Source: a virus. From it: a stretch of 20,220 nt of DNA. Below the pieces are notes generated by a model. It did not search any database. It was not told where the DNA came from and saw nothing but the letters and a program-made list of their open reading frames with translations. Below are positions 17,343 through 20,220 of this stretch, piece by piece. Both the position numbers and the translations under genes were made by a program. The first letter of the stretch is position 1. Every line of letters begins with the position of its first letter. Location: positions 1 through 20,220 of the IMG/VR virus record IMGVR_UViG_3300028864_000113. One strand, written 5' to 3'.

Positions 17343-17354
17343 TATATAAACGTA
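17343..17354 (-). promoter_or_regulatory. Candidate phage promoter word, copy 1
   Basis: The minus strand reads TACGTTTATATA. The same 12 nt recur at 18906 and 19339 and nowhere else that I can find in the window. This copy lies between the RNase HI terminator and the 16663-17289 start (about 54 nt upstream of the ATG), which is where a promoter is needed. Confidence 0.6.
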
Positions 17355-17407
17355 ATTAAATAGAAAAGGTTGTATGGAAAGGAAAGTAATATTATATAGA
17401 CACAAAA

Positions 17408-17443
17408 AAAGGAGACTTCAACCATTGGGTATCCATCTCCTTT
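17408..17443 (-). terminator. Intrinsic terminator after RNase HI
   Basis: On the minus strand AAAGGAGA pairs with TCTCCTTT (8 bp, 20-nt loop), and the 3' arm runs on into a T-run (AAAAAAA at 17404-17410 of the plus strand). It sits 24 nt past the RNase HI stop. This is the clearest Rho-independent terminator in the window. Confidence 0.8.
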
Positions 17444-17940: not shown

Positions 17941-18542
17941 TATGCTACCTTTGCAAGTATTTCATAATAAGGAACTAGTGCTGAATCTTTAAACAGATCA
18001 AAGTCAATTGATCGTTTGTTTGGATATACGACAATATCTCCAACGTTTAATACTAACATACCTTCTTTGCCTTCAGTTGCCTTAAACGAAGCCGGAGTGG
18101 CTAATACGACGCCTTTACGAAGTAGTGACTCTGTCTCTATTTGTTTGATAGTCATTTGCATTACAGGTTCGCCTTCTTCATCTTTTTCGCCTGAGTCTTC
18201 TGGTACTGTAAGTGTTTTAAATACCATCTCTACATCCATTGGTTTCACTAGAACCATGTTAGCGAATTCATAATTAACTTTCTCTGCAACTATATTTGCT
18301 AATATTGTGTTGTCCACGTTTTCAATAACAGCCTTATTAACTGATTGTTCTTGAACATTATTTAATATCTCTTCCATTTTTCCTTGTTTTATTGGTTTTA
18401 ATTCTCCGCCGTATATTGTATCTATTATATTGTTTACATTAGATTCAACCCATTCGGATTCTTTTGTTTTTAAATATGCATCTCTATTCGCATTATTAAA
18501 TTCAGTAATAGAATCTATTATATCTCTATTATCTTCCATCAT
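17940..18542 (-). CDS. Protein with GroES-like C-terminal domain
   Basis: About 200 residues from ATG 18542; a GTG at 18557 would add five residues. The first 90 residues are acidic and helical. From about 95 the sequence follows the co-chaperonin fold. NMVLVKPMDVEMVFKTLTVP matches the K-P-L-x-D-R-V-V-V-K opening. An acidic mobile-loop-like insert follows (PEDSGEKDEEGEPVMQ), then LRKGVVLATP, VGDIVVYPNKRSIDF and a final PYYEILAKVA strand. By analogy with phage T4 gp31, such a protein could cap host GroEL to fold the capsid protein. Homology rests on pattern order only. Its start overlaps the upstream membrane protein's stop. Confidence 0.68.
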   Translation of the reverse strand: MMEDNRDIIDSITEFNNANRDAYLKTKESEWVESNVNNIIDTIYGGELKPIKQGKMEEILNNVQEQSVNKAVIENVDNTILANIVAEKVNYEFANMVLVKPMDVEMVFKTLTVPEDSGEKDEEGEPVMQMTIKQIETESLLRKGVVLATPASFKATEGKEGMLVLNVGDIVVYPNKRSIDFDLFKDSALVPYYEILAKVA

Positions 18543-18726
18543 TGTGTTTGCGGCCACTACGCCTATAGTCTTTTATTTTACTATTCACGTCATCCATACC
18601 TCTTAATATAGTACCAGCTATATGTACGATTATACTATTGATTACCGGATGTAAAGCATACCCGATGAATAGGGCTGTAGCAAAAACGATTGATTCGTCC
18701 CAAAGTTGTGATGTCATTATAATCAT
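18529..18726 (-). CDS. Small membrane protein
   Basis: This 65-residue protein has a hydrophobic central region at about residues 12-42 (SIVFATALFIGYALHPVINS, then IIVHIAGTIL), long enough for one membrane span, or two short ones. A basic, polar tail follows (YRRSGRKHNDGR). The size and topology are holin-like, but holins cannot be told from other small membrane proteins by this alone. ATG 18717 is an alternative start that would remove three residues. The gene starts 8 nt after the stop of the 55-residue gene at 18735. Confidence 0.65.
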   Translation of the reverse strand: MIIMTSQLWDESIVFATALFIGYALHPVINSIIVHIAGTILRGMDDVNSKIKDYRRSGRKHNDGR

Positions 18727-18734
18727 ATATTAAC

Positions 18735-18902
18735 TTATCTTTCTTGCCAAATTCTTTTTAAAGTCTTTTTTTGTTGATCTGTCAATCCAAATTGATTCCC
18801 CCACTCTTCTATTTTGTAGTTCATGAGTTCATTATTAGAAGAACTATATTCTGATATGAGTCTCTTACTATGTAATTTCTTCTTTATGTATCTCCAATTC
18901 AT
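18735..18902 (-). CDS. Small basic protein, first gene of the block
   Basis: This is a 55-residue frame from ATG 18902 to TAA 18735. It begins MNWRYIKKKLHSKRLISEYS and ends LTDQQKKTLKRIWQER. It is basic and helical, with no family recognised. Codon use resembles its neighbours. The ATG lies only 3 nt after the promoter-like word at 18906, so if that word is the promoter the mRNA would be nearly leaderless. Otherwise translation may begin at the internal ATG (residue 27), giving 29 residues. Confidence 0.6.
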   Translation of the reverse strand: MNWRYIKKKLHSKRLISEYSSSNNELMNYKIEEWGNQFGLTDQQKKTLKRIWQER

Positions 18903-18905
18903 ACT

Positions 18906-18917
18906 TATATAAACGTA
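18906..18917 (-). promoter_or_regulatory. Candidate phage promoter word, copy 2
   Basis: TACGTTTATATA on the minus strand is identical to the copies at 17343 and 19339. It ends 3 nt before the ATG of the 55-residue gene. A start site inside or just after the word, as with single-subunit phage polymerases, would be compatible with this spacing. A sigma-type -10 box would not leave a leader. Confidence 0.55.
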
Positions 18918-19338
18918 TTTATGCCGACCTTTGTTGTACTGCCTTAATTATATTCTGTATTTGTTCGTAATTAAACACAGTTTACCCCTTGAGACAGGCC
19001 CATATTCTGCATGGCTTATTGATTATTTCCTCATTAAATCTGTACGTTCCCTTTCGGTATCACCTAACCCGTCTATCGCAATCTCTCCTTCTTAGCTATT
19101 TCTAGCAACGGTATTTAACTTGTACTCTAATCATTTTGATACTACCGGAGAAAACTAATAGACTAACTAACGGCCTTTTATTGACTATAAATGCATAGAG
19201 TTTGGCGCTTGACCTTTATCTCATTTGAGTACTCACCTACTACCTTTATATACGTCCTCTGTTAATCTATTATAATCCGATGTCTAACCCTTTATTGATT
19301 ACCTTAGGGTGAATCAGCCTTTGGAGACTGGTATCGCA
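18918..19338 (-). ncRNA. Structured noncoding leader RNA, leftward
   Basis: This 421-nt stretch has stops in all frames and lies between promoter-word copies 3 and 2. Hairpins visible on the minus strand are: CAGUC/GGCUG with a U-G pair (19315-19330), ACCCU/AGGGU (19287-19310), CGGUA/UACCG enclosing an AUCA-AAA-UGAU stem (19109-19147), GCUA-GAAA-UAGC with a GNRA tetraloop (19095-19106), and CUGUGUUU/AAAUACAG with a G-U pair (18955-18980). The wobble pairs and the GAAA loop exist only in the minus-strand RNA, which fixes the likely sense. It is either a long 5' leader of the late block or a separate small RNA. I recognise no known RNA family, tRNA or riboswitch core. Confidence 0.5.
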
Positions 19339-19350
19339 TATATAAACGTA
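19339..19350 (-). promoter_or_regulatory. Candidate phage promoter word, copy 3
   Basis: TACGTTTATATA on the minus strand is the rightmost copy, next to the AT-rich tract and upstream of the 421-nt noncoding leader. It would be the main leftward promoter of the structural block if the word is a promoter. Confidence 0.55.
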
Positions 19351-19455
19351 GTAATTTCTATTTTGTTGTCACTGTTGTAAAAAATTTTCTAAAAAATAAA
19401 TTTAGTATGGGATATGCGACCATGCGAAATGAAAAATTTTGGCAAAAAAAAATAA
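19351..19455. other. AT-rich tract between the two noncoding halves
   Basis: This stretch is rich in A and T runs, including AAAAAATTTTCTAAAAAATA and a nine-A run at 19444-19452. It holds a tandem pair of ATGCGA (19414-19419 and 19422-19427). It separates leftward from rightward structured regions, so it may hold divergent promoters or an easily melted origin segment. No gene is seen here. Confidence 0.35.
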
Positions 19456-19462
19456 CCGATGA

Positions 19463-19494
19463 CATCTATGAGCGCGCGAAACTCTCTATAGATG
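19463..19494 (-). terminator. GC-rich hairpin, possible leftward terminator
   Basis: CATCTAT at 19463-19469 pairs with ATAGATG at 19488-19494, with GAG/CTC continuing the stem across a bulge. On the minus strand the arm is followed 10 nt later by a T-run (complement of 19444-19452). The gap is long for an intrinsic terminator, and the hairpin may equally be the first element of the rightward RNA. Confidence 0.35.
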
Positions 19495-19580
19495 ACTCCC
19501 CCGGTCCAAGTTGACGATCCAATACCCCCGTCAGCGCAAGTAGACTGTAATTTCCCAATCATGGCTCCTTTAGGTAGATT

Positions 19581-19663
19581 AGCAGTCGTTTCATGTCAAT
19601 TATATCAGCCTTGATGTCACTGTCAAGGCTCCTTTAGATGTAATAGTCAGTGTAATGACTGCT
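19581..19663 (+). ncRNA. Element A: 83-nt extended hairpin
   Basis: Outer stem AGCAGTCGTT/AATGACTGCT (10 bp, one G-U). Middle stem ATTATAT at 19599-19605 with ATGTAAT at 19638-19644 (7 bp, one U-G). Inner stem AGCCTTGATG/TGTCAAGGCT (10 bp, two wobbles) with loop UCAC. The one-sided internal loop CCTTTAG (19631-19637) is the repeated motif. Confidence 0.55.
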
Positions 19664-19692
19664 TACTCTCTCACATGACAGATCAATGTTAT

Positions 19693-19728
19693 GTAGTGTA
19701 TAGTGTATGATGATGCACTATAGGCTAT
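19693..19728 (+). ncRNA. Element B: 36-nt hairpin with GAUG loop
   Basis: UAUAGUGUAU at 19699-19708 pairs with AUGCACUAUA at 19713-19722 (10 bp, one U-G) around GAUG. A lower stem GUAGU/GCUAU continues it past one G-G mismatch, giving about 15 pairs. Confidence 0.5.
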
Positions 19729-19741
19729 CACACAATCATTA

Positions 19742-19818
19742 GGCAGTAGTTAGTACAGCTTGTCGAGCTAAGACTAAGACATGTGTTTAGATCACACATG
19801 GGTGGGAACGCTACTGCC
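19742..19818 (+). ncRNA. Element C: 77-nt three-way-junction-like fold
   Basis: Closing stem GGCAGTAG/CTACTGCC (8 bp). First arm TTAGT/ACTAA plus AGCT/AGCT with loop TGTCG (19750-19777). Second arm CATGTGT/ACACATG with a 7-nt loop (19780-19800). The 3' strand GGTGGGAACG before the closing stem is unpaired. The size resembles a tRNA, but there is no T-arm sequence and the arm lengths are wrong. Confidence 0.5.
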
Positions 19819-19819
19819 A

Positions 19820-19878
19820 CACTCTCTAATCAATCATGTATACGGATGGTACTAATGTATCATATAGTATATAGAGTG
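19820..19878 (+). ncRNA. Element D: 59-nt hairpin with UAAU loop
   Basis: Three stacked stems: CACTCT/AGAGTG (6 bp), a 12-nt bulge on the 5' side, GTATAC/GTATAT (6 bp, one G-U), an internal loop GG/AUA, then AUGGUAC/GUAUCAU (7 bp, one G-U) closed by UAAU. It starts 1 nt after element C. Confidence 0.5.
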
Positions 19879-19887
19879 CGTTAGATC

Positions 19888-20010
19888 GCATTAAAACCCT
19901 ATTGAGATCGCTGTCAGGCTGCCTTTAGGTGTAGTTGGAGTGAATGGGAATGTGGGATCGGGAATTGGACATATGTCTGGTGCAACCGTACGCAGGATAC
20001 ACTTTAATGC
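19888..20010 (+). ncRNA. Element E: domain closed by long-range 8-bp stem
   Basis: GCATTAAA at 19888-19895 pairs with TTTAATGC at 20003-20010, enclosing 107 nt. Inside are a bulged ACCCU/AGG-U-GU stem (19896-19932) that holds the third CCTTTAGG copy, and a hairpin CUG-GUGC-AACC-GUAC-G-CAG (19977-19995). The G-rich middle (19937-19970) is unassigned. Confidence 0.4.
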
Positions 20011-20016
20011 AATTTA

Positions 20017-20080
20017 AATAGGTAATGTACTTACTGAGAATGGTAAGCCAAGTCAATGCTGCTGTATAGTATTACCTATT
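20017..20080 (+). ncRNA. Element F: 64-nt fold with 12-bp closing stem
   Basis: AATAGGTAATGT at 20017-20028 pairs with GTATTACCTATT at 20069-20080; the outer 10 bp are perfect and two wobbles extend it. Inside, CTTACTG/TGGTAAG at 20030-20047 forms a hairpin with loop AGAA. About 20 nt on the 3' side are unpaired. Confidence 0.6.
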
Positions 20081-20149
20081 ATTACGCACATAGAAGTCAT
20101 GTAGCTATCATGTGTAAAGTACCTACGTAGCAATACGATTAACGGTAAT

Positions 20150-20210
20150 TCAGTAATATGCAGTGTGGAGTACAGGCCTTACGTCCACTAACTGCATTGT
20201 GTATTACTGA
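20150..20210 (+). ncRNA. Element G: 61-nt nested hairpin
   Basis: Three perfect stems are nested: TCAGTAATA/TATTACTGA (9 bp), TGCAGT/ACTGCA (6 bp) and GTGGA/TCCAC (5 bp). They are separated only by 3'-side bulges (TTGTG and TA). The loop may add GTA/TAC. This is the least likely of the set to be chance. It also reads well on the minus strand, as it has no wobble pairs. Confidence 0.65.
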
Positions 20211-20220
20211 TATTTAAACT

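Follow-up and report, generated by a model that had tools for sequence, protein, structure and literature searches.

Near the end of a 20.2 kb crAss-like phage record lies a noncoding stretch of several hundred nucleotides in which stem follows stem, raising the questions of whether it encodes a structured RNA, on which strand, and in what relation to the neighbouring genes. We analysed the whole record as one window (positions 1-20220, where it ends). No viruses of the human gut are more abundant than the crAss-like phages. The assignment of the window to this group, already made in a preliminary description based on the letters alone, is confirmed by its TerL, which is 68% identical to that of cr118_1 (Suoliviridae, Uncouvirinae). 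TerL, portal and major head protein all matched PHROG families, and no DNA similarity to annotated phages was found. The recognisable genes belong to the late operon and all lie on the minus strand, so the stem chain does run opposite to the protein genes, as had been noted. Since the same late operon is followed by a noncoding stretch and then by early genes on the opposite strand in six relatives (L003, L007, L009, L048, L060 and cr118_1), positions 18727-20220 are, judged by gene order, the divide between late and early operons, with the plus strand as the early direction. The early gene itself is not visible in the window because the record ends at 20220. Near-duplicate relatives were counted once (L004 and L005 with L003, L063 with L048), as was L006, a duplicate of L007.

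The reported absence of an open reading frame from 19581-20210 was upheld, with none of at least 50 amino acids on either strand of 19563-20220 (translation table 11). A recoded gene within 18500-20220 is improbable, since alternative genetic codes open no more than short frames there unless two stops are read through together. The plus strand of 19550-20220 is predicted to fold at -204.8 kcal/mol versus -176.9 +/- 6.3 for 20 shuffled sequences (z -4.46), compared with z -2.72 for the minus strand (20 shuffles); for 19455-20215 the values are -5.74 and -1.92, based on few shuffles (20 for long stretches). In the kind of shuffle test that had been proposed, the plus strand thus folds much better than its shuffles (z -4.5 to -5.7), and the minus strand less so (-1.9 to -2.7). 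The plus strand also folds better than the minus strand in L007 (z -5.8 versus -1.1) and L008 (-4.8 versus -2.7), whereas L003 as a whole has no plus-strand advantage (-2.2 versus -2.7). A late coding stretch used as a control gave a z of about 0. The two-genome consensus fold of the window and L003 over 19609-19817 reached z -7.3 to -8.1 on the plus strand against column shuffles, versus -2.3 to -4.2 on the minus strand.

Table 1 Positions of the features discussed, in window coordinates.
Feature	Positions	Strand	Remarks
Block P	19459-19532	+	Fixed-spacing block GAGYGYG-GAA ... ACTCCCCYGG ... GGAAYACCCCCG
Box 1	19559-19573	+	Repeat, TCAN5CCTTYAG
Long stem	19581-19663	+	Unsupported; 10/23 pairs broken in L003
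Inner stem	19607-19630	+	Unsupported; 5/9 pairs broken in L003
Box 2	19623-19637	+	Repeat, TCAN5CCTTYAG
HP1	19673-19694	+	Loop GAUCAA; 8/8 pairs intact in L003, 2 double compensatory changes
HP2	19695-19726	+	13/13 pairs intact in L003, 4 double and 3 single changes
M	19742-19818	+	Three-way junction; covariance model R2, six lineages
Hairpin with inner stems	19820-19878	+	CACUCU/AGAGUG; 5/6 and 6/6 pairs intact in L003, innermost stem 4/7
Box 3	19914-19928	+	Repeat, TCAN5CCTTYAG
Terminal long hairpin	20150-20210	+	Minimum free energy stem, 22 pairs
RNA-L	~18945-19340	-	Structured RNA adjoining the plus-strand chain; nhmmer and cmsearch
Promoter-like motif TACGTTTATATA	19339-19350	-	Just upstream of RNA-L
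Promoter-like motif TACGTTTATATA	18906-18917	-	Bounds the RNA-L stretch together with the copy at 19339-19350
Promoter-like motif TACGTTTATATA	17343-17354	-	Before late genes

Comparison with relatives divides the proposed chain of stems (Table 1). HP1, HP2 and the three-way junction M show compensatory changes and stand as conserved plus-strand RNA structures, but the two most eye-catching elements, the long outer stem and the stem within it, are unsupported because so many of their pairs are broken in L003; both were rejected and are probably chance or recent pairings. The structured plus strand also starts further upstream than the 19581 first given for it, the conserved region beginning at ~19459. 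HP1 and HP2 together (19673-19726) keep 21 of 21 pairs in L003, with six double compensatory changes, and L007 has a hairpin at the place equivalent to HP2 before M. The HP2 loop is complementary to the linker AAUCAUU that precedes M, a possible pseudoknot. Further downstream, the stem at 19838-19872 is intact in L003 (6/6 pairs, one double change) and that at 19884-19909 nearly so (7/8). The window and L003 are unalignable over ~19935-20145, and 19957-20147 is without an alignable relative. A hairpin with the outer stem of the terminal one, TCAGTAATA/TATTACTGA, reappears in L003 some 30-40 nt before the early lipoprotein gene. An intrinsic terminator was not recognised at this last hairpin: the bases after it are TATTTAAACT in the window and TTATTACTATTAATT in L003, neither of them a U-run. 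Five cells of the M closing helix hold G-U pairs on the plus strand, with more in HP1 and HP2, and the single cell in that helix suiting the minus strand is an A-C in L048. Within the comparison-supported helices, covariation and these G-U pairs therefore bear out the earlier argument for structured RNA with the plus strand as sense, rather than DNA palindromes.

In module M the closing stem, GGCAGUAG/CUACUGCC, encloses an arm GUC/GAC with loop GAGCUAA and a second arm with loop UUUAGAYA; AGUAC and UGGAAC in the junction are conserved, as are the loop nucleotides. Relatives of M were identified with nhmmer in L003, L007, L008, L060 and L048. The closing helix is intact in L003 (9/9 pairs), and in A1, a structure-blind MAFFT alignment of the six sequences, 97.9% of its cells are paired, with both-side changes in seven of the eight pairs. 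Over the whole of M, 77.5% of cells pair versus 61.8% in shuffles, a control that ignores relatedness, and the covariation score is 0.573 versus 0.245; shifting the partner by 1-3 columns destroys the signal. The inner hairpin scores poorly in A1 because MAFFT sets its arms out of register, and by eye it is perfect or near-perfect around UUUAGAYA in each sequence. Searching with R2 recovered L003, L007, L008, L048 and L060 with E values of about 1e-14 or lower, and added L092, from outside the model, as a seventh lineage (E 0.0009-0.006, no non-standard model pair). Searches of L009, L014, L021 and a set of named gut phages gave no M. Pairing of CUAAG with the UUUAG loop of M as a pseudoknot was weighed and discarded, as by eye it fails in L007, L060 and L092.

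The position of M relative to early genes varies. It occupies 1755-1839 in L060, 43 nt before a start codon at 1712, whereas in L003 and L007 the next gene is 300-450 nt away and in the window any early gene is at least 400 nt away. In L092 it is situated between later early genes, and in L008 no recognised same-strand early gene follows before the contig end. The first genes after M in L003, L007, L048 and L060 encode homologous small lipoproteins (blastp E 2e-5 to 3e-10) which share a YARDKYDAxR-like motif, and for which no Pfam or PHROG family convincingly passed the cut-off.

Upstream of these structures, the core of block P is gap-free across 14 Suoliviridae-type lineages, including cr118_1, cr53_1, cr60_1, cr10_1 and cr125_1. 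In all 14 the first early gene lies shortly downstream of it and reads in the same direction, and a genome holds roughly one copy of its C-run pattern. Because spacing within the block is fixed while pairing is not conserved, it is suggested to be a DNA recognition site, and on its conservation and placement we regard block P as probably an early promoter or the start of the early transcript. The box repeats behave differently from a general promoter. Exact copies number three to four each in L003, L004, L009 and L014, in one cluster and in the early direction, with none elsewhere, and this confinement to the leader cluster led us to reject the box as a genome-wide early promoter. Boxes are absent from L007, L048 and L060, all of which retain M. 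Conversely, L009 and L014 lack M; in its stead they have boxes together with an ORF for a small membrane peptide and a kissing-like module, the stem of which is compensatory between lineages (AAAUGACU/GGGUCAUUU versus AGACCGUC/GGCGGUUU). Separately, L009:5645-5770 and L091:3340-3450 (minus strand) share a hairpin GCAG-GAGCUGUA-CUGC and, behind it, a compensatory stem whose loop is ACAAUAGCUUAGUG; together they are probably another RNA module, and the two loops could kiss.

HP1, HP2 and M follow block P on the plus strand, and in L003, L007, L048 and L060 the lipoprotein gene comes after them; the comparison thus establishes conserved structures, their strand and their position between block P and early genes. 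With a probable early promoter ahead of the region and, in relatives, a conserved early lipoprotein gene behind M, the simpler reading of the plus strand over ~19459-20215 is that of an untranslated, structured 5′ leader of the crAss-like early operon, and on this sequence evidence we lean towards it. From the arrangement we infer that the region is transcribed and that block P serves as promoter, as well as each functional step that follows. Block P would be read as the early promoter by a virion RNA polymerase injected with the phage DNA, and the leader would be the first RNA that this enzyme makes. Its first several hundred nucleotides would fold into successive domains, namely two hairpins, M, further hairpins and the last hairpin, after which would come the first early gene (the small lipoprotein gene in relatives) and then its neighbours. 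M and the adjoining elements may act mainly in cis, by keeping nucleases off the start of the early messenger and controlling how far it is translated or read through; release of these elements as stable small RNAs is a further possibility. Action in cis is preferred to a released or free-standing trans-acting RNA because of the layout in L060. The early operon of crAss001 is switched on within 10 min (PMC8375218), and a similar early operon in phi14:2 is attributed to the virion polymerase in work cited by that paper. What counts against a leader is that lineages vary in the segments that separate block P from the first gene; with a kissing-like module in place of M in L009 and L014, there is no single conserved leader architecture. 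The equal folding of the two strands in L003 and the situation of M in L008 also weigh against it.

The best-surviving rival, which we consider rather unlikely, is a free-standing trans-acting noncoding RNA, large or processed in the style of ROOL and GOLLD, which would terminate at the last hairpin while the messenger starts separately. A length of ~750 nt, several domains, a strong overall fold and the possible pseudoknot between the HP2 loop and the linker are all features of such an RNA. An independent small RNA would also fit the distance between M and the early genes in the window, as well as the position of M between other early genes in L092; the gap of 300-450 nt after M in L003 and L007 points the same way. 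However, the 43 nt between M and the first early start codon in L060 leave little room for a terminator, the terminal hairpin is without a U-run in both the window and L003, domain content shifts between lineages, unlike in ROOL, and no Rfam family was matched.

Among known systems, the HK022 put-type leader RNAs are folded elements with which an early phage operon begins, a likeness of kind to the leader proposed here. They differ in that the polymerase in our case is presumably an injected phage enzyme, so antitermination of a host polymerase is not expected. ROOL and GOLLD (PMC12286853) are likewise long, multi-domain structured phage RNAs, of unknown function. The present region differs in being unmatched by Rfam covariance models, in standing at the start of the early operon and in varying its domain content between lineages. 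ROOL and GOLLD often lie near tRNA islands, whereas ARAGORN predicted no tRNA or tmRNA gene in the window, which spans only 20 kb; assembly as an RNA-only homo-oligomer is a trait of ROOL and GOLLD. The preliminary description had recognised no known RNA family, and the Rfam search it proposed agreed: neither the window nor eight relatives reached the gathering score of any family, and relaxing the threshold to E <= 10 added nothing for 18700-20220. L014 and L060 gave weak matches that were set aside as chance. Comparative microbiome screens (PMC8040213, PMC2864571) have similarly yielded covariation-defined RNAs of unknown function, some near phage genes; crAss-like phages are not mentioned in the main text of PMC8040213. 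In the open-licence literature, we found no description of a conserved noncoding RNA or early promoter for crAss-like phages.

It is improbable that the elements act as DNA, either as a replication origin with box repeats and cruciforms or as N4-type hairpin promoters for an injected polymerase. The site lies between divergent operons, where strand skew turns, and the boxes are directional repeats confined to the region, as such elements might be; nevertheless, the G-U pairs of the supported helices would turn into C-A mismatches on the opposite strand, the fold excess of the minus strand is much weaker, and conservation in M extends to its junction and loop nucleotides. We consider very improbable a decoy or sponge RNA whose boxes and loops would capture a protein of the host or the phage, such as an RNA-binding defence protein or Ro60/TROVE. 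This idea draws on the fixed, repeated sequence of the box and on a TROVE-domain early protein encoded by crAss001 (PMC8375218), which also recalls Y RNA and YrlA with Ro60. However, TROVE (PF05731) is absent from 11 related records, several of them partial, Rfam gave no Y-RNA match, and L007, L048 and L060 retain M without boxes; the TROVE/Y-RNA partner reading was rejected on the missing gene. Chance or compositional bias, to which the failure of two proposed stems in L003 might be ascribed, has a negligible claim and is refuted for HP1, HP2 and M by the shuffle tests, double compensatory changes and independent covariance model match.

Large noncoding gaps of 0.9-2.2 kb occur in the early regions of other phages, namely cr53_1, cr60_1, cr125_1 and crAss001 (L139:10099-12338, L128:8802-10350, L126:10461-11379 and L138:15966-16870), and several fold better than shuffles. 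The crAss001 gap adjoins the RNA-binding protein gene gp96, probably that of the TROVE protein (PMC8375218).

A second structured RNA, RNA-L, is encoded on the late strand next to the proposed leader and is absent from the preliminary description. By sequence comparison it is better conserved than the plus-strand chain, occurring in 13 lineages: the window, L003, L007, L008, L009, L014, L021, L048, L057, L059, L060, the gut phage cr118_1 (L125; at about NC_055872 66552-66860) and L074, the last matched from outside the model at E 3e-7. RNA-L matched no Rfam family. Within it, ~85 nt (19141-19226) are identical in the window, L003 and L007, and these three share an insert of ~100 nt. Alignments comprised 10 and 11 sequences, and the window sequence entered A2 minus the insert. 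In the 5′ domain, pairing over three helices amounts to 89.9% versus 72.2% in shuffles, which ignore relatedness, with both-side changes in 11 of 16 pairs; in the 3′ domain, helices P2 and P3 covary. A second partial copy, comprising the 3′ half, lies at the contig start of L008 (3-107), upstream of a late-strand small lipoprotein ORF. The promoter-like motif TACGTTTATATA precedes RNA-L or late genes in several relatives. Just before its copy at 17343, after the RNase H gene, an intrinsic terminator AAAGGAGA...TCTCCTTTTTTT (~17404-17443, minus strand) accounts for a high structure score there.

Taking both strands together, we tentatively raise the wider possibility that part of the Crassvirales shares a bidirectional RNA locus at the early/late divide. 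Its early strand would produce a modular trans-acting noncoding RNA whose domains (M, hairpins, boxes and the kissing-like module seen in L009 and L014) are swapped among lineages and which acts on the host early in infection, and its late strand would produce RNA-L as a separate stable RNA of ~330-400 nt, extending from environmental phages to the gut phage cr118_1. If so, both RNAs would be new families with new functions. The covariance models of M and RNA-L and the block P alignment offer concrete targets for stranded RNA-seq, existing for crAss001, which could show if, when and by which polymerase the proposed leader and RNA-L arise.

In several relatives, including L017, L022, L026, L048, L057 and L060, TerL gave a one-segment match covering query residues 1-470 only, a pattern suggestive of a single-site intron or intein.
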